Source: Methanomassiliicoccales archaeon LGM-RCC1 (GTDB lineage: Archaea; Thermoplasmatota; Thermoplasmata; Methanomassiliicoccales; Methanomethylophilaceae). Taken from it: a stretch of DNA of 64,000 nucleotides. Shown piece after piece: positions 12,338 through 46,926 of this stretch. The DNA lies in contig CP115555.1 of NCBI GenBank assembly GCA_030168575.1, positions 1,178,001 to 1,242,000 of the forward strand, written 5' to 3'. The position numbers and the translations under genes are program-made. The notes below the pieces were generated by a model that was given only the letters and a program-made list of their open reading frames with translations, was not told the DNA's origin and did not search any database. Positions within the stretch are counted from its first letter, which is position 1. Each line of letters starts with the position of its first letter.

Positions 12338-12931
12338 ATGCACGTGTTCATAATCGGAGGATTCCTAGGAAGCGGGAAGACCACCATGCTGCTCAGCCTG
12401 GCGAAGGTCTATGTGGACAAGGGGATGAAGACCGCGATCATCGTCAACGAATCGGGCGAGGTCGGAGTGGACGGTGCGACCATCAAGGCCGAGGGATACA
12501 GCGCAACGGAGCTGCCCGAGGGGTGCATCTGCTGTACGTTGGTTGGTACCCTTCAGGCGACTCTGAGGAACATCAAGAGGGACATCGACCCCGAGATCCT
12601 GATAATAGAGCCCACGGGTTTGGCGCTTCCTCACAAGGTGAAGCAGTTCGTGCACACGGCCATGATAGACGAGGAGACCTGTTCAATCATAGGGCTGGCC
12701 GACGTGGAGAGGTTCGATTCCCTCCTGGAGAAGAAGGAAGCGTTCTACAAGATGCAGATGTCGGGCTCCGACCTGGTCCTGATCAACAAGGTGGATCTGG
12801 CGCAGCCAGGTCAGGTGGAGCACATCAGGAAGTGGTTCGCGGAGAACTTCCCCGACAAGCCTGTCGAAGCGGTGTCCGCGAAGACCGGCTAGGGAATGGA
12901 CAAGCTCTACGATTTCACACTGTCGCGCTGA
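12338..12931 (+). CDS. COG0523/CobW-HypB-like GTPase with in-frame TAG (Pyl) at residue 185
   Basis: A 197-residue G3E-family GTPase if the TAG at 12890-12892 is read as pyrrolysine; 184 residues if it stops. Walker A is GGFLGSGKTT (about 7-16), the switch region NESGEVGVDG, the COG0523 metal motif GCICCT (CxCC) near residue 65, and NKVD for guanine. The TAG falls inside the conserved SAKTG-x-GMD, where HypB-like proteins usually have Glu, and the frame continues GMDKLYDFTLSR to TGA. That match favours read-through. The C-terminal substrate domain of full CobW is absent. Directly behind ramA, it may deliver metal or help assemble the activase or corrinoid proteins; that role is inference. Its 3' end overlaps the next, convergent gene by 17 bases. 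Confidence 0.8.
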
Positions 12932-16161: not shown

Positions 16162-17145
16162 ATGAAGGTATTCGTCTACGACTGCAGGACATACGATGAA
16201 TAGGGGTTCTTCAGCGAATTCACTGAAAAACTCGGCATAGAATGGGACTGCACCTCGGATACGCTGGTCCCTGAGATCGTGGACCTTGCAGCCGGATACG
16301 ATTACGTCTCCATCCTCACGACACCGGTCACAGCGCCGATGCTGGACAGGTTCAAGGAGCTGGGGATCAAGATGATAGGCACAAGGTGCATCGGGTTCGA
16401 CCACATCGATATAGCCCATGCAAAGGAGATCGGCATGGTGGTGACCAACATCACCTACGATTCCGACGGGGTGGCGGAATTCACCGTCATGGACATCCTG
16501 ATGGGCGTCCGCAGGATGAAGGAGGTCATGATCAAGACCATGGGCAACGACTTCAGGCTCAACTGCCTTCTGGCCGAGCAGCTCAAGGATATGAACGTCG
16601 GAATCATCGGAGCCGGAAAGATCGGCCTTGCCGTCATGAGGGACCTGACAGGCTTCGGATGCAAGCTGTATTACTGCAACCGCAGCAGGAAGGCAGAGGC
16701 CGACAGGTACGCAGAGTTCATCAGCATGGATGAGCTTCTAAGGACCTGCGACGTCATCTCGATGCATATGGAGCTGAACGAGAAGACATACCATATCCTG
16801 GATGCAGAGGCTTTCGCCAAAATGAAGAAGGGCGTTGTGTTCGTCAACACCGCAAGAGGCGGGCTCGTCGATACCAAGGCCCTCATCGACGCTCTGGACT
16901 CGGGACAGGTCTCCTGTGCTGCACTGGACGTTGTGGAGAACGAGCTCGGTCTGTATTACAACGACTGCAGGGGCAAGGATCTGGAAGGACACTACATCGA
17001 TATCCTGAGGAACATGCCCAATGTCATCTACACGCAGCACATGGCATTCTATTACCGCACAGCTGTCAGGGACATGGTGTCCAACTGCCTTCTCAGCATG
17101 AAACTGCACAACGAAGGGAAGGAGATCCCCCACAGACTGGCCTGA
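16162..17145 (+). CDS. D-2-hydroxyacid dehydrogenase (D-LDH/VanH-like) with in-frame TAG (Pyl) at residue 14
   Basis: The frame from ATG 16162 reads MKVFVYDCRTYDE, TAG (16201-16203), then GFFSEFTEKLG and onward to a 327-residue enzyme. D-lactate dehydrogenase and VanH relatives have Lys or Glu at this point in the YDxxFF motif, so the TAG replaces a surface residue in an intact gene. The NAD domain shows VGIIGAGKIGLAVM; the catalytic Arg is in NTARGG and the catalytic His in TQHMAFYY. It reduces 2-oxoacids such as pyruvate, or the reverse. Stopping at TAG and restarting at 16279 would delete the first strand and helix of the catalytic domain, so read-through is more likely. Stands alone; a TATA-like CTTTTTATCG lies about 30 bases upstream. 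Confidence 0.85.
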
Positions 17146-17847: not shown

Positions 17848-20800
17848 ATGATATTCGACCATATTGCCAATGGCATACAGAGGCATGCCAAGGCGATAAT
17901 TGTGATTTGGGTACTGATCCTGTGCCTGTCGGGCTTCCTCGCAATCAACGCCAACAGTGTGATGAGCTACGACATGAACGAGATGGCCCCCGAGAACTCA
18001 GAGTCCATGATAGGGCTCGAGATCCTGACCGACTACTTCCCCACGTCGGAAGCAGATGAGAACACCATGCCGATTCTCGTCCTCTACTTCGAGAACGCCA
18101 CGCAACTGGCCAGGGCCCAGACGTTCGTCGAGGACCTGGATTCATACGCATCCGGCTATGAGCATATAACCGGTGCCATTGCCATGGACCCGATGAAAGA
18201 CGCCTCTGGTAAGGGAATAGTGATGGCATTCATCACTTTGGAGGGGTTGACCCTTACCGAGGTCGCAGCCTTCACGCCCGATGTCCGTGATTTCATCGCC
18301 GATGTGATGGAGGCTACCGGATTCAACGGTGCAGAGTACCTCACCGGAACATCAGCGATGACCTACGACATGGAGCACAACGCACTGGAGGACATATCGA
18401 AGATCGATCCCTTCACCGTGCTGATGATCCTGATTCTCGTTGGACTGTTCTTCAGGTCCTTCGTGTCGTCTGGAATCCCGCCGATGACCATCGGTGTCGC
18501 CTTCGTGGTCGCCATGGCGCTCATCTTTATCCTCGGTCAGTACATGAACATCTTCTACATCACCAACATGATGATCCTTGTGTCCATGATGGGTGCTGGA
18601 TGTGATTACTGTATCTTCATCATTGCACGTTACAGGGAAGAGCTCCGTGCCGGGCTCTCCCATGATGACGCCCTCCACCAGGCTATCGTCTGGGCAGGGG
18701 AGTCGATCACAATCTCCGGAGCATCGGTCATCATCGGTTTCGGAGCTATGTCCGTCTGCAACTACTCCCTCATCTCCACCATGGGAATATGCCTAGCATT
18801 GGGTGTCCTGGTCGCGCTGCTTGCCGCTCTGACCCTGATACCATCGATCCTCCACTTCGTGGGGGACAAGGTCTTCTGGCCCTCCACCATGAAAACGTTC
18901 AAGGAAGGCGGAAAATCGACAAAGGGCTGGTATGCATGGTGCGCGAAGATCGGCGAGAGGTACTTCGACAGATCCGCCAAGTTCTCTCTGAAGCATGCGA
19001 AGGCCATCGTTCTCGCTGCATTGATCGCCACCGCCCCCGCAGCATATCTGGTCATGGAGAACGAGAACTCCTATGATATGATCACCTCCATGCTGAGCGG
19101 TGAATCCGGGGACGGAATGGGATACATCGCCGATTACGCAGACCAGGGTATGGTCATGCCCAACTATTCGATCATCGAGTACAAGTCGCCCATAGCGACC
19201 ATAACCAAGACAGAGGGTCAGCAGATAGGCACACTGTATTGGACCGATAATTGGAACGATCGGGTATCGTCTACCCTGACATCGCTGTATACAGATATGA
19301 TGAAGGATGATAACGTCGCATACGCCAGCGGACCCTTCGTTTGGGAGGACATGCTGGAAGCGATAGAGGCCGCAGGGATAACCGAGACGGATGAAAAGGT
19401 CGCATACATCAAGGCGCATAGCTCGGCCAAGATCGATATGATCTTCAACCAGATGGTCGAGAAAGTGTCAGAGATGGGCATGAGCACAGAGTACTTGTTC
19501 AAAGGCCCCGGAGCGCTCATCGACAGCATCATCGAATCCTACAATATCGATTTCGATTGGGACAAGGAGGTAGCAGCGTCAAAGACGGCCGGTCTCACGG
19601 ATCCCGCAGCCATAGTGGCCGATGTGGAGTCGCGCTTCGCAACGGAGTACCCCTCGATGGCCCAGACGCTCACCGCGATCATAACGCAGATCAAGCAGTC
19701 CGGCGTCACAGACGATATGCTGGTGAACGGTGTCGGATCAGTGGTGGATGCCGCATTCGCATCCGCCGGAATCACCATCGATTGGGATGCCGCGGTCGCC
19801 ACTGCCATATCATACGGTCTCACTGATCCCGATGAGATCGTCGCAGCGATCATCCATTTCATGCCGGAAGCCGCAAGGACCGGAGCCACGCAGATCATCT
19901 CGGGTCTCAACAGCAACGGCCTCACCAATGACATCCTCGTCTACGGGTTCGGACCCGTCATAGACAGTGCGTTCGACAGCATGAGGATTGAGTTCGATTG
20001 GGATGCCGCGGTCGCAGCCGCAAGGGCCGCCGGAGTCACGGACCCTGATGCCATCGTCGCGGCCATCAAAGACCAGGTAACTGCCGAGAATCCGACGGTG
20101 GGACAGATCCTGGCAGCTGCTGTGACTTTCCTCAACGGCTCGGGCATCAGTAACGAGATCCTTGTGTCCGGCACCTTTGCGCCCATTGTGGATTACATCA
20201 TGAACGTCTCCGCCTCGATCCTCGGGGGGCCTTATGCGAAGACCGGCTCAGGCGATGTCACCTACATCAGCATCATCACCGCCACCAACGCACCGGGTAT
20301 GTCAACCAGGTCCATGGAGTCCATCTCCGTCATAGCGGCAGCGGTCTCCGACTATGCGACCAAGAACAGCGCCATCGTCAAGGCCCAGTGGAACACCGGA
20401 AGCGCCGTCATCATGTATGAAGTGTCCGAAGAGGTCAAGAAGGAGTTCGCCTACATCGAGCTCCTGGTGATCGTTCTGATCCTCATACTCCTGTTCGTGG
20501 TGATGAGGTCCTACCTCATCCCGTTCAGGTCGGTGCTGACGATCCTCATGTCCATCGTTTGGACACTGGCAGTCACCCGTCTGGTGTTCGTGGACCTTCT
20601 GGGAGGCGACACGCTGTGGATGATCCCGATCATCCTGCTGGTCATATGCCTCGGATTGGGAATGGATTACGATATCCTGCTGACCACCCGTATCAAGGAG
20701 AACGTGATGGCGTTGGGAATGTCCAACGACGATGCGATCTACCACGCGGTCACCCACACCGGTTCCGTCATAACCATCTGCGGACTGATCATGGGAGGTG

Positions 20801-21021
20801 CCTTCGGTACCCTGATGATCTCCGGAATGAACATGATGCAGGAGTTCGGATTCGCACTGTGCTTCGCCATCCTGGTGGATGCGCTGATCGTCCGTACATA
20901 CATCGTCCCCGCAGTGATGCATCTCCTTGGAGATTGGAACTGGAAGGGACCCGGCGTCAAGTACAAGTCCAAGTCCGATAAGGACGCACCCTCACAGGAA
21001 GACCTCGACGAGTATTTCTGA
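17848..21021 (+). CDS. MMPL/RND-superfamily exporter with repeated extracellular domain
   Basis: A 1057-residue membrane protein with the two-fold RND layout: a first helix (about 14-33), a large outside loop, helices 2-6 (about 185-345), helix 7, a second outside loop (about 400-860) and helices 8-12 (about 870-1040). Conserved GAGCDYCIFIIARYREEL and GLGMDYDILLTTRIKE are the paired MMPL helix-4/helix-10 motifs whose acidic residues carry protons. The second loop contains three copies of a 72-74-residue unit, which is unusual. MMPL proteins export lipids or hydrophobic compounds and some archaeal ones handle polyprenyl or surface lipids. Substrate unknown. A hairpin terminator follows. Confidence 0.85.
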   Translation: MIFDHIANGIQRHAKAIIVIWVLILCLSGFLAINANSVMSYDMNEMAPENSESMIGLEILTDYFPTSEADENTMPILVLYFENATQLARAQTFVEDLDSYASGYEHITGAIAMDPMKDASGKGIVMAFITLEGLTLTEVAAFTPDVRDFIADVMEATGFNGAEYLTGTSAMTYDMEHNALEDISKIDPFTVLMILILVGLFFRSFVSSGIPPMTIGVAFVVAMALIFILGQYMNIFYITNMMILVSMMGAGCDYCIFIIARYREELRAGLSHDDALHQAIVWAGESITISGASVIIGFGAMSVCNYSLISTMGICLALGVLVALLAALTLIPSILHFVGDKVFWPSTMKTFKEGGKSTKGWYAWCAKIGERYFDRSAKFSLKHAKAIVLAALIATAPAAYLVMENENSYDMITSMLSGESGDGMGYIADYADQGMVMPNYSIIEYKSPIATITKTEGQQIGTLYWTDNWNDRVSSTLTSLYTDMMKDDNVAYASGPFVWEDMLEAIEAAGITETDEKVAYIKAHSSAKIDMIFNQMVEKVSEMGMSTEYLFKGPGALIDSIIESYNIDFDWDKEVAASKTAGLTDPAAIVADVESRFATEYPSMAQTLTAIITQIKQSGVTDDMLVNGVGSVVDAAFASAGITIDWDAAVATAISYGLTDPDEIVAAIIHFMPEAARTGATQIISGLNSNGLTNDILVYGFGPVIDSAFDSMRIEFDWDAAVAAARAAGVTDPDAIVAAIKDQVTAENPTVGQILAAAVTFLNGSGISNEILVSGTFAPIVDYIMNVSASILGGPYAKTGSGDVTYISIITATNAPGMSTRSMESISVIAAAVSDYATKNSAIVKAQWNTGSAVIMYEVSEEVKKEFAYIELLVIVLILILLFVVMRSYLIPFRSVLTILMSIVWTLAVTRLVFVDLLGGDTLWMIPIILLVICLGLGMDYDILLTTRIKENVMALGMSNDDAIYHAVTHTGSVITICGLIMGGAFGTLMISGMNMMQEFGFALCFAILVDALIVRTYIVPAVMHLLGDWNWKGPGVKYKSKSDKDAPSQEDLDEYF
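19519..20200 (+). repeat. Three tandem 72-74-residue repeats in the MMPL loop
   Basis: Units begin near codons 558, 632 and 704 with a shared core: D-S/A-x-x-x-S-x-x-I-x-x-D-W-D-x-x-V-A-x-A-x-x-x-G-L/V-T-D-P. The core FDWD/IDWDAAVA and TDPDEIVAAI recurs in each; a partial fourth begins near 20178. At the DNA level the last two are most alike (GATTGGGATGCCGCGGTCGC occurs in both), implying recent duplication. Confidence 0.8.
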
Positions 21022-28207: not shown

Positions 28208-30844
28208 TTACTCCTCAGCCATCCTTCTCAGGACGTACTGAAGGATTCCGCCGTTGGCGATGTACTCGACCTCTGCCGGGACATCTACCCTGCAGATGGT
28301 CTTGAACTCCAGCTTCTTACCGTCCTTGTAGGCAGTGACGTAGATGTCGCCCTTGGGCTCAAGGTCCGAAAGGTCGATGTCGAACGTCTCCGAACCATCG
28401 AGGTTCAGCGTCTCGCAGTTCTGTCCGGGGAGGAACTGCAGCGGGACGATCCCCATTCCGACCAAGTTGGACCTGTGGATCCTCTCGAAGGACTCCGCGA
28501 TCACTGCCCTGATTCCGAGGAGGAACGGCCCCTTGGCCGCCCAATCCCTGGAGCTTCCGGTTCCGTATTCCTTTCCGGCCAGGACGATCAGGGGGGTCAT
28601 GTCCTCCTCGTACTTCCTGGAGGTCTCGAATATAGTGTCGACGGAGCCATCGGGCATGTATCTGGACTTGCTTCCCTCGCTTCCGGGGACCAGCTGATTC
28701 TTCAACCTTATGTTGGCGAAAGTTCCTCTGACCATGACCTCGTGGTTGGCCCTCCTCGATCCGTAGGAGTTGAAATCCTCCTTCTTGACTCCCTTGGCGA
28801 GCAGGTACCTTCCAGCATCGGAATCGGCGGAGAAGGCTCCTGCCGGTGAGATGTGGTCGGTGGTGATGGAATCGCCGAGCTTGGCGAGGACCCTCGCTCT
28901 CTTGATGTCCTTGATCTCCGGCTCCTCGAATATGTCGTCGAAGAAAGGCGGGTTCCTGATGTAGGTGGAAGCCTCATCCCAGTTGAACAGGGGTGAATCC
29001 GAGCATTCCACGGCATCCCATCTGGCGGAGCCCTTGAAGATGTCCTTGTACTTCGCGACGAAGGTCTCCCTGGTCACGTACTTGTCGGTAATCTCCTGGA
29101 TCTCGGCATCGGTGGGCCAGACGTCCTTCAGGAACACCTCCTTGCCATTCACCGTTGCGAGGGGTTCCTTATCCATGTCGATGTCGACCCTTCCTGCGAT
29201 GGCGAACGCCACGACCAGCGGGGGCGACGCAAGGTAGTTGGCCTTGACCAGGGGATGGATCCTTCCCTCGAAGTTCCTGTTGCTCGATGCGATCGCAGCA
29301 ACAGCGAGGTCGTTGGCGATGATGGTGTTGCTGACCTTCTCCGAGAGAGGTCCGCTGTTACCGATGCATGTCATGCATCCGTATCCGCAAACCTGGAAGC
29401 CCAGTTGCTCCATGTAGGGCAGCAGCCCGGAGTTCTTCAGGTACTCGGTGACGACCCTAGATCCGGGTGCTAGCGAGGTCTTGACGTAGTCCTTTGGTTT
29501 CAGACCGAGCTCTGCGGCCTTCTTGGCCACCAGTCCGGCCGCGATCATCACGGAGGGATTGGCGGTGTTTGTACAGGATGTGATCGAAGCGATGACCAAC
29601 GAGCCGTCTCCGAGCTGGTCGGAGAAGGGCTTCTTCTGTTCCTCGACTCCCAGAGCCTTCAGCGATTCTGTGAACTTCTCCTTCATCTCTGACAGGAGGA
29701 TCCTGTCTTGTGGCCTCTTGTGTCCTGCGAGACAGGGCTGCACTGTTGAAAGGTCCAGCTCCAGCGTGTCGGTGTACTCCGGCTCGCCGTCGTACCACAT
29801 CGTCTGTTCCTTCATGTACTTCTCGATGGTGTCGATATGGGCTTCGTCCCTGCCTGTGAGTTTGAGGTATTCGATGGTCTTCTCGTCCACGGGGCAGAAT
29901 CCCATGGTGGCTCCGTACTCCGGACCCATGTTGGCGATGGTCGCCCTGTCCGCGAGGCAGAGGTTCTTGTATCCTGGTCCGTAGAACTCCACGAACTTGC
30001 CCACGACACCCTTCTTCCTGAGCATCTGGACGACTGTGAGGACAAGGTCGGTGGCGGTGATGCCGGGTCCGAGCTTGTTGGTGAGTTTGAATCCGATGAC
30101 ATCGGGGAGCTTCATGTAGCTGGGCTGGCCGACCATGACAGCTTCTGCCTCGATTCCTCCGACACCCCATCCGACGACTCCGAGTCCGTCGATCTGCGTG
30201 GTGTGGGAGTCTGTTCCGAAGCAGGAATCAGGGTATGCTATGGTCTTTCCGTCCTTCTCCTTGACGTGCACCAGAGGCGAGAGGTACTCGAGGTTGACCT
30301 GGTGGCAGATTCCGTTCCCCGGGGGCACGGCGCGGAAGTTCTTCAGCGACCTCTGGGCCCATTTGAAGAGCGCGTACCTCTCCTTGTTCCTCTGGAAGTC
30401 CAGCTGCTCGTTCAGCTCCTGCGCGTCGTCCCTTCCGGCGTAATCTGTGTTGACCGAGTGGTCTATGACGAGGTCCACAGGGATCATGGGGTTGATGAGC
30501 TCAGGGTCCTAGCCCATGGCCTCAACTGCATTCCTCATGCTGGCCAGATCTGTGATGGCTGCTCCTCCGGTGAGGTCCTGCAGGAGCACCCTTGCGGGGA
30601 TCCATGGGATGTCCCTATCGGTGTTCTCCTTGGGGTTCCATGAAGCTGCTGTGATGACATCCTCATCCGTGATGACGTCCCCGTCCCTCTGCCTGAGCAT
30701 CGATTCCACGATGACCTTGATGGAATAGGGCATCTTGGAGAGGTCCTTGATCACACCCTTGGACTCCAGCTCCCTGAGGCTGTATATGTCCAACTTGCCC
30801 TCTTTGGTCTCAATCGTCTTTACGCACTTTCCGATCTCGGTCAT
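28208..30844 (-). CDS. acnA: Aconitate hydratase (AcnA type) with in-frame TAG (Pyl) at about residue 112
   Basis: Interconverts citrate and isocitrate, probably for 2-oxoglutarate synthesis. The frame is a normal-length AcnA (878 residues) interrupted only by a TAG at 30509-30511, inside the conserved stretch RNAVEAMG-x-DPELINPMIPVDLVIDHS, where other aconitases have Gly or Lys. Upstream lies LLQDLTGGAAITDLASM and downstream the [4Fe-4S] ligands TSCTNTANPS and CGYGCMTC, then the C-terminal swivel domain with YGTGSSRDWAAKG. Neither half is functional alone, so read-through with pyrrolysine is the best reading. Start ATG 30844 is chosen; ATG 30862 would add six residues. It diverges from the regulator-HMG-CoA synthase operon across a shared control region. 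Confidence 0.9.
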
Positions 30845-34330: not shown

Positions 34331-34789
34331 TCAGGCTTTGAGAAGCTCGACCATGGCAACATTCTCGACGGCCTGGTCCTCGTAAGGCACCGGCCCATCG
34401 GTCAGTCCGAGCTTATGTGCCTTATCCTTGGTGGGTTCCATCAGAGAATCATCCCTAATCATGCCGATGGCATCCAGTTTGGGGTCCTCGATGTCGATGA
34501 GCAGGGCGACGTATTCGTTCCTGCCATCCTTGGGCTTCATCTTGGATAATGCCTTGGAGATCTGCCTCTCCCAAGCGGAATACAGGATGATCTCGGTGAG
34601 GATGGTCTTGGAACGGTTCGTTCCTTCTGAGAACGATCTCTCCGCATGCATCGCAGCGGAGATGATGTGGTCCTTTCCAACCACCATGTCCGGATCCATC
34701 AGCACGACATCGCCACCCATGGAAGTGAAATGGGATACGATGGAATCGAATGGGGCATCCCCGCGCATGCCGATGACCTAGAAGTCCAT
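34331..34789 (-). CDS. cgi121: KEOPS subunit Cgi121 with in-frame TAG (Pyl) at residue 4
   Basis: KEOPS makes the t6A modification of ANN-decoding tRNAs; Cgi121 binds the Bud32 kinase and tRNA. The body matches the family: VVLMDPDMVVGKDHIISAAMHAERSF, TILTEIILYSAWERQISKAL and a closing ALLIDIEDPKLDAIG. The frame from ATG 34789 reads MDF-TAG-VIGMRGDAPFDS, and the VIG-x-RGD strand is the normal N-terminus. The next Met (34768) would lose part of that strand. Read-through gives 152 residues. This is the weakest of the five TAG cases because a downstream start is available, but the in-frame upstream ATG and conserved strand favour Pyl. Confidence 0.78.
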
Positions 34790-44077: not shown

Positions 44078-46357
44078 TCAGAAATCGAAGAGGTTGGTCT
44101 GTTTAGGACCATCCTCTTCCACTTTTTTCTTCTCATCTTCAACAGGTTTCTCGTCATCCATCGGGATGTCGAATTCGGCCGCCATCTCATCGAGCATCGC
44201 TTCCTCTTCAGAAGGCGCCATCTTCTCGACGACGAATGTCTTGCCTCCGGCCTGCTCCTTCATCTTGGCAGCGAGCGCAGGACCGATCCTCGGGATGGCT
44301 GCGAGCTCCTCCTCGCTAATCGCAGCGACATCCGATCTGGTGCGGATGCCCTTGTCGAACAGGACCCTGGCCCTGCTCCTTCCGACACCTCTGAACGAGA
44401 CCAGTTCGATGAGTTCCTCTTTCACTCCGTATCTCACGCGGGTCATCAGAGGACGGATCTTCTTCATGGCATCAGGGTTGAACATGTATGCGATCTCGCT
44501 CATGGCGTAGATTATCCAATCCATCATGTCGATCTTGGACCTGATGTCACCGGGACCGATGCCCATGGTCTCGGTCAGGGTGTCCTCGTCCATCTCTTCG
44601 ATCCAATCGTTGATCAGCAGAGCGACCTTCAGGTCGCTGTTCACGAACTCTGGATCGTAATCCTCGATGTCATCGGGATCGACCAGCATCTTGTCCCAAA
44701 TCTCATCCGAGACGGCGTTCAGCCTGTCAAGGTCGGATTTCTTCGGATACATTCCGATGACATCCGGAGTCATGGCCGCCGCAAGGAGGATCTGTATGTT
44801 CTCCGTGTCGTCATTGATGTTCGTGACCGCCTCTCTGAGAATAGATGCTGAAGCAGGGTCGATGTAGAGGTCGGACACACGCTTTCCGAAGGACGTTGCC
44901 CTCAGGACCTCGTTGTGGGACCTGGCCATGTCCTCCTCAATCAGGGACATTACGATGCTGTCCACGACGCCCTCGATGCCGAAGAGCTGTGAGACTGTAC
45001 CGAAGAACGTCTCCTTGAGGAAGTCTATGATTCCTTCGTGACTGTCCGCATCGCCTGTGGCCAGCAATCCGAGCACGTGGCTTCTCAGGACCTTCTCGTT
45101 GAAGAGCTTGGATGTCAGGCGCTCGGTGTCGTGGTCGACGTAGTCCTCCATGAGGTGGTCGAAGTCGGCCTGATTCTTGGCGACCAGGACCGCTTCACCA
45201 TAAGGATCGTAGCCGGGTCTTCCGGCACGACCGCACATCTGCTTGACCTCCATCACTGAGATGGGGGAATTGCCATAGTTCGATTCGTAACGTGAGGTGT
45301 CCCTGACGATGACTCTTCTGGCAGGGAGGTTTATTCCCGCTGCCAGAGTGGGTGTTGCGACTATGCATTTGATGGTTCCGTTGCGGAAGTTATCCTCGAC
45401 GTACTTCCTCTGCTTGTAGGTGAGTCCCGCATTGTGGAATGCGATGCCGCATTTCACGCAGGATGAAAGCTTCCTTCCTGTTGCTGTGGATTCGGAGGAA
45501 TCCCCTTCCAGGACGTAGAGTTCCTGAGGGGTCAGCGTCCTTCCGGCAAGTGCGCTCATGTTCTTGGAGTACTTGACCGCCAGAGCCTCCGTGGATCTCC
45601 TGGAGTTGACGAACACCAGGCTCTGGCCGCCGTCCTGGACGGCCTGCTTGACAAGGCTCCATACTTCTTCTCCGTCAGAGGGCACTTCCCTGGACGTCCT
45701 GTCGTCGAACTTGATCATGCCGTCGTAGTAGACTCCTTCCTTAAGCGGGATGGGTCTCCAATCGCTCTCGACCAGTTTGGCGTGAAGCCATTCCGCAAGG
45801 TCGAACGCATTGGACATCGTGGCGGACAGGGCGATGATCTGGAGATCCCTGTTCCTTCTCATGAACTTGGTCAGTGCGACCTCAAGCGTAGGCCCCCTTC
45901 CGGGGTCGTGTATCATGTGGATCTCATCAGCTATCACAAGGCCGACGCTCTCGATCCACTTGCTCCCGTGGCGTATCATCGAGTCCGCCTTCTCGGACGT
46001 CGCGACTATCACGTCGGCATCCTCCAGACCCTTATCATCCGAATCCAGGTCCCCGGTGCTCATATGCGCCTTTATGCCCAGATGTGAGAACTTGTCGAAA
46101 TCCTCCTTCTTCTCGGAGGCCAGTGCTTTTAACGGCACGATGTAGAGGACCTTCTTCCCCTTCTGGACCATCATCTCCAGAGCGGGGATGTATCCTATGA
46201 GCGACTTTCCGCTCGCCGTAGGTATGGCAGCCACAAGGTTGTGTCCCTATAGCGCTATGGGGATGGCCTGCGCCTGGGGAGGGTGAAGATTGACGAAGCC
46301 TGCCTCCATGAGGGCCTCGGCGACCCTATCGCAGACCTCAAGCTCGTCTACCCTCAT
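44078..46357 (-). CDS. hel308: Hel308-type DNA helicase with in-frame TAG (Pyl) at residue 37
   Basis: The 759-residue superfamily 2 helicase acts in replication-fork repair. The frame from ATG 46357 (MRVDELEVCDRVAEALMEAG) passes the Q-motif LHPPQAQAI, then a TAG at 46247-46249, and immediately GHNLVAAIPTASGKSL with Walker A. Relatives have an acidic or basic residue followed by G-K/H-N at this point. Later motifs are intact: ADEIHMIHD (DExH), the SAT motif (ALSATMSN), TLAAGINLPAR, QMCGRAGRPGYD, and a C-terminal HhH (FRGVGRSRARVLF). Without read-through the protein would lose its Q-motif. It is the last gene of hypA-hypD-unknown-hel308. Confidence 0.92.
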
Positions 46358-46362
46358 TCGGA

Positions 46363-46926
46363 TCACTGCTTGCACAATTCCCTTATGATCTCCTCGATGC
46401 GGTCCGCATTGTCGTTGCCGACGCGCGCACCCTTCCTCTCGAGGTAGATCCAATCCCTCTTCTCGCATTCCTCTTTGAATTCGGGATTGGTGACTGCGAT
46501 GAGCTTGCCCTTGCCGATCTGGTCGGCCTCAAGGAACAGCCTGAAGAGCTCCTTGGGCATGCAGAAGATGACCTTGTCGAAGGCGTTGGCGATGTAGGAG
46601 ACCTGCTCCACGTATCCTTTGTTCTGGTCCACCGCTTTGAATTCCTCAGCGGTGTCCATGGTCTCCTCGTATCCTGTGACCATGTAGTTGCCGGGCACGA
46701 ATCCGTAGCGTGCGCTTATTACACCGTACGAAACGTCGCAGATCTTCCTGTCCTTATCGTCCGTTGCGGTGTCCAAGCGTGCGACCAGGTTCTTGACCTC
46801 GGTCGCCCTTCCCTCGAACATCTCGAATGCCGACAGCAGCTTGCTCTTGTCCTTGAACACCTTGGAGTCGTTGGTGACCACGAGGATGCGCTTGTTCATG
46901 TGGAGGTCCGTCATCAGTTGCGTCAT
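46363..46926 (-). CDS. Hypothetical protein between hypD and hel308
   Basis: The 187-residue product is not recognised. It begins MTQLMTDLHMNKRILVVTNDSKVF; the Met at residue 10 is an alternative start. Alternating strands and helices (RILVVTNDS, KLLSAFEMFEG, KVIFCMPKELFRLFLEA, KLIAVTNPEFKEECEKRD) suggest a Rossmann-like nucleotide- or phosphate-binding domain. The start is one base after the hypD stop and the stop is five bases before the hel308 ATG, so it is in the operon. Three cysteines, none in a metal-like pair. The context gives no clear role. Confidence 0.65.
   Translation of the reverse strand: MTQLMTDLHMNKRILVVTNDSKVFKDKSKLLSAFEMFEGRATEVKNLVARLDTATDDKDRKICDVSYGVISARYGFVPGNYMVTGYEETMDTAEEFKAVDQNKGYVEQVSYIANAFDKVIFCMPKELFRLFLEADQIGKGKLIAVTNPEFKEECEKRDWIYLERKGARVGNDNADRIEEIIRELCKQ

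Follow-up and report, generated by a model that had tools for sequence, protein, structure and literature searches.

A strain-specific in-frame TAG, probably decoded as pyrrolysine, in an archaeal Hel308 helicase gene

The Hel308 gene of Methanomassiliicoccales archaeon LGM-RCC1 is crossed by one in-frame TAG, which very probably represents a recent, tolerated CAG-to-TAG change at codon 37 that is decoded as pyrrolysine (Pyl; the 22nd amino acid), so that full-length Hel308 would still be made. The change would be specific to this strain and would lie in a functional gene of a gut-type methanogen and Pyl decoder of the Methanomethylophilaceae, in which PylS would charge tRNA-Pyl(CUA), Pyl would be inserted at codon 37 and the ribosome would yield the complete protein. 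The TAG is most likely Pyl because the codon is sense in relatives, the genome carries the Pyl cassette and TAG is nearly absent as a stop. We infer the insertion of Pyl, its efficiency and its neutrality.

The Hel308 gene and its product

The region analysed is a 64,000-nucleotide stretch of contig CP115555.1 (hereafter the window), and the features discussed are listed in Table 1. Translation of the minus strand gives a reading frame from ATG 46357 to TGA 44078 (760 codons, the TGA being codon 760) that contains no frame breaks and a single stop ahead of the TGA, namely the TAG. The initial annotation had placed Hel308, with a TAG at residue 37, at exactly these coordinates, and its statement that no frame damage or further stop follows was confirmed, with 722 sense codons downstream rather than 720. 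Codons 1–36 (MRVDEL...LHPPQAQAIPIAL) align from residue 1 with full-length Hel308 relatives in the family and are read as part of the same protein as the rest; the context of residue 37 in the predicted full-length product is AIPIAL-Pyl-GHNLVAAIPTASGK. Termination at the TAG had been expected to remove the Q-motif and nearly all of the helicase. The helicase would indeed be lost from Walker A onward, but the motif LHPPQ, which we take to be the Q-motif from what is known of SF2 helicases, precedes the TAG and would be kept in the 36-residue piece; its loss would be a consequence of restart after the TAG, not of termination there.

Table 1. Hel308 features and other genes with in-frame TAG codons (positions are those of the window unless a locus is named)
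Feature	Position	Strand	Remarks
Hel308 (Hjm/Ski2-type) DNA helicase gene	44078..46357	−	759 codons, one in-frame TAG, stop TGA
In-frame TAG, codon 37, predicted pyrrolysine	46247..46249	−	CAG in same-species genome G054
Q-motif LHPPQ, codons 24–28	46274..46288	−	Upstream of TAG
Walker A (motif I) PTASGK, codons 46–51	46205..46222	−	
GTG (Val42)	46232..46234	−	Sole in-frame restart possible between TAG and Walker A; GTG not conserved
PIP-box-like QTNLFDF, Hel308 C terminus	44081..44101	−	Present in most genus members
Gene upstream of Hel308	46363..46926	−	Stop TGA 46365–46363; similar junction in nearest species
CobW/HypB/UreG-type GTPase, TAG codon 185 of 197	12338–12931	+	GAG in G054
D-2-hydroxyacid dehydrogenase, TAG codon 14	16162–17145	+	TAG also in G054
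Aconitase, TAG codon 112	28208–30844	−	Lys (AAG/AAA) in seven relatives
Cgi121-like protein (KEOPS subunit family), TAG codon 4	34331–34789	−	CAG in G054
RecB/UvrD-like helicase-nuclease, TAG codon 411	L125:5270–8155	+	Also at L164, L168, L169
RFC large subunit, TAG codon 466 of 481	L125:14846–16291	−	GAA in G054
Uncharacterised ~250-residue protein, TAG codon 23	L109:3484–4233 = G000:C1 about 1,283,483–1,284,229	+	Near mtmB/pyl methylamine cluster

Sequence, profile and fold evidence identifies the protein as a Hel308 helicase. The Pfam domains over cut-off were DEAD (PF00270), Helicase_C (PF00271), archaeal helicase domain 4 (PF21280) and HhH (PF14520), and the best NCBIfam models were those for ATP-dependent DNA helicase/Hel308 (NF002654, 803 bits against a cut-off of 887; the score for NF040935 was 569 against 1200), both high scores that fall short of the curated equivalog thresholds. 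Searches with phmmer returned 2zj2 (E = 4e-152), 9b15, 2p6r and 2va8 as the best PDB matches over nearly the full length, and the AlphaFold model (mean pLDDT 83) gave Hjm/Hel308 structures as top Foldseek matches, with TM scores of 0.78–0.91. The archaeal Hel308/Hjm proteins of PDB entries 2P6R, 2ZJ8 and 2VA8 share the sequence family and fold of the window protein but have a standard residue at the equivalent of codon 37, where the window gene has TAG. The C-terminal QTNLFDF resembles a PIP box and is putatively PCNA-binding; the tail ahead of it is variable across relatives and modelled with low confidence. A Hel308 relative was present in all 102 family genomes searched, the few partial or weak matches possibly reflecting incomplete assemblies.

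Codon 37 across relatives and constraint on the gene

The TAG at codon 37 is private to the window strain (G000). The same-species genome G054 has CAG (Gln) at this position, and the 28 further family genomes have sense codons for Q, E, S, R, D or T; in the next nearest species the codons are CAG, CAA, AGA, CAG, GAG, CAG and GAT, and more distant relatives encode E, S, T and R. Among the matches listed in the family search, no other Hel308 relative had TAG. The earlier suggestion that the TAG is read through as sense is thus supported, as sisters carry a sense codon at the site, but the closest relatives have CAG or CAA (Gln) instead of the TAG, AAA or GAA that had been anticipated. CAG is likely ancestral, because CAG and CAA are the commonest codons in the nearest species, and TAG is likely derived in the window strain. 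The two strains differ at two adjacent bases (CTG CAG in G054, CTA TAG in G000). Avoidance of a PstI site as the cause of the CTGCAG-to-CTATAG change was ruled out, as the two regions contain 26 and 25 copies of CTGCAG.

Column 37 of the alignment varies freely between a Leu that is nearly invariant and a Gly that is invariant. In the AlphaFold model, residue 37 is the first of the turn that joins helix 26–36 to strand 41–44, the strand preceding Walker A. Since residue 37 lies at a variable site in the turn that leads from the Q-motif helix to the Walker A strand, Pyl would be tolerated there, probably without a special role. Residue 37 lies nine residues ahead of Walker A, and a functional Pyl that changes the ATP site, or that couples the supply of Hel308 to Pyl (methylamine) metabolism, might be envisaged; this is scarcely credible, given that the TAG is absent even from the same-species genome and the column accepts Q, E, S, R, D or T. 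A Pyl site that a protein needs for its function, such as that of MtmB, would be expected to keep its TAG across orthologues, which the Hel308 site does not. A conserved functional Pyl site was therefore ruled out, the TAG being private to one strain; conservation gives the site no support, and the variable column and strain-private TAG gave no indication of a functional role. That Hel308 synthesis needs Pyl by selection and not neutrally, which would link DNA repair, through the Pyl cassette, to methylamine metabolism, is similarly very hard to credit.

Translation could instead end at the TAG and restart at GTG 46234 (Val42), an in-frame codon four codons ahead of PTASGK, to yield a Hel308 without the Q-motif. 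This is very unlikely, as the position of the GTG is GTT, GTA or GTC in several relatives, such that no start codon is conserved there, and GTG 46234 was ruled out as an alternative start on these grounds. Further against a restart, ATG 46357 begins 5 bases past the TGA of the upstream gene and this junction (TGA, with ATG a few bases later) is retained in the nearest species, the protein encoded by codons 1–36 is identical in G000 and G054, and TAG almost never serves as a stop in the G000 genome. The situation named beforehand as fatal to read-through, a conserved start after the TAG with loss of the Q-motif in sister genomes, was not what the sisters displayed: they use the same ATG and keep the motif.

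Across the whole gene, G000 and G054 differ at 70 codons, 65 synonymously and 5 non-synonymously with the TAG among the 5, and from this ratio Hel308 is under constraint. A young pseudogene, in which a nonsense mutation broke Hel308 in the window strain, would account for the TAG being private to that strain. It is nevertheless highly improbable: the 65 synonymous changes are accompanied by only 4 other non-synonymous changes and no frameshifts, a relative occurs in every family genome searched, and similar TAGs occur in aconitase, Cgi121, the RFC large subunit and further genes of the genome, whose joint inactivation is unlikely. The preferred reading remains a CAG-to-TAG substitution in a working gene, most likely young and neutral or slightly harmful.

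Pyrrolysine machinery and TAG usage in the genome

The window genome is a single contig of 1,664,211 bases (98.8% complete). Two mtmB genes, both carrying TAG at codon 202 as called, are found about 44 kb beyond the window; after them come tRNA-Pyl (anticodon CUA), pylS, pylB, pylC and pylD, which form a complete cassette. The genome also encodes one aRF1 and one Pelota, and with this set and the Pyl cassette the cell is equipped to decode UAG as pyrrolysine. The nearest PDB match of its PylS is 8IFJ and 6JP2, which we take to be the PylRS of M. alvus, is clearly more distant; the genome belongs to a lineage other than M. alvus, and PylS lends no support to its identity with M. alvus Mx1201. 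According to PMC10094482, 8IFJ is the PylRS of ISO4-G1. Three features expected of a Pyl protein are found for Hel308, with tRNA-Pyl(CUA), PylS and PylBCD encoded by the organism, homology on both sides of the TAG and TAG avoided as a terminator in the genes sampled.

To count TAG codons, genes were called with TAG as sense using our own simple codon-usage model, in a sample of the genome made up of the window (55 genes) and eleven 20-kb stretches (193 genes). TAG was a plausible true stop in at most 1 of the 248 sampled genes. Within the window, TAG was needed as a stop in none of the 55 genes and was found in frame in five, encoding Hel308, the CobW-type GTPase, the D-2-hydroxyacid dehydrogenase, aconitase and Cgi121, for which the G054 codons are CAG, GAG, TAG, AAG and CAG, respectively. 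The eleven further stretches contained six in-frame TAGs, two of them in mtmB; one in-frame TAG outside the window (codon 1320 of 1328) is a possible real end. A called gene at window positions 17848–21021 ends in a TGA that aligns with CGA in G054, and the two strains may not share the same end for this gene.

Comparison of 17,260 window codons between G000 and G054 gave 4 at which one strain has TAG and the other a sense codon, with TAG always on the G000 side, against 311 non-synonymous differences. Roughly 3,460 codons of the window can reach TAG in a single step. By rough arithmetic from the mean non-synonymous rate of the window, treating TAG as an average replacement predicts ~9 changes involving it and treating it as lethal predicts 0; 4 were seen. 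CAG–TAG differences numbered 2, compared with 2 for CAG–CAC and 1 each for CAG–AAG and CAG–GAG. TAG/sense differences arise at close to the ordinary rate of amino-acid replacement. A general excess of TAG in G000 over G054 was unsupported, the sampled stretches having 3 in-frame TAGs in 173 genes of G000 and 7 in 176 genes of G054.

As only two neighbouring bases separate the G000 and G054 sequences at the site, misreading of CAG as TAG during sequencing or assembly could be proposed. An error of this kind is most improbable, since the assembly is single-contig and nearly complete and in-frame TAGs recur in the same way in G000, G054 and G050.

The RFC large subunit provides independent evidence of read-through because a stop at its TAG would remove a conserved PIP box, QASLFDF (QATLFEF in one genome), which directly follows the TAG and is present in 8 of 8 genomes compared. 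These patterns support TAG being in effect a sense codon in such archaea. Separate TAGs were observed in the RFC large subunit of G058 (position 402) and the aconitase of G050 (position 593), and the TAG of the RecB/UvrD-like helicase-nuclease is common to G000, G054, G050 and G062, with sense codons in the other aligned relatives.

In one clade, 11 of 13 genomes have TAG at codon 23 of the uncharacterised ~250-residue protein and the other two encode Glu; an NCBIfam search with the protein gave no match. Identity among its relatives (L193–L205) is about 40–99%, and the residues around the TAG vary. The tree requires three state changes at codon 23, most simply one gain and two losses. Unlike Hel308, this protein looks like a candidate for a long-kept Pyl site outside the methyltransferases; it is of greater interest than the Hel308 TAG and merits its own study.

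Relation to known pyrrolysine decoders

Pyl in non-methyltransferase proteins of the Methanomassiliicoccales is already published, and Hel308 is a further case. Sixteen such proteins were predicted in Ca. Methanomethylophilus alvus, in which TAG accounts for 1.6% of stops (PMC4153887); Hel308 is absent from that list (Table 7, PMC4153887). The two genomes share the order, the Pyl cassette, the rarity of TAG stops and in-frame TAGs where homologues lack one. The same 2014 study proposed that constitutive Pyl decoding makes an in-frame TAG a stable mutation (PMC4153887), which fits the CAG-to-TAG change envisaged for Hel308. In the rumen methanogen ISO4-H5, a member of the same family as the window genome, 46 genes have in-frame amber codons, several of them housekeeping, with no helicase named in the main text (PMC5011839). 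In the literature searched, no paper mentioned pyrrolysine together with Hel308. Heinemann (2009, cited in PMC4153887) reportedly attributed Pyl in tRNA-His guanylyltransferase to neutral evolution; that case resembles Hel308 in placing Pyl in a housekeeping protein without need, but concerns a different gene and order. A 2025 paper in Science is said to have used proteomics to find that some archaea consistently read TAG as Pyl, an archaeal code in which all TAG is pyrrolysine.

The Hel308 TAG looks like neither a broken gene nor a new mechanism. Codon 37 offers a clean CAG/TAG pair within a species, and in genomes of this kind, gene calls made under the standard code will give truncated versions of Hel308, aconitase and others. 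With Hel308, a universally kept helicase joins the housekeeping proteins predicted to contain pyrrolysine.
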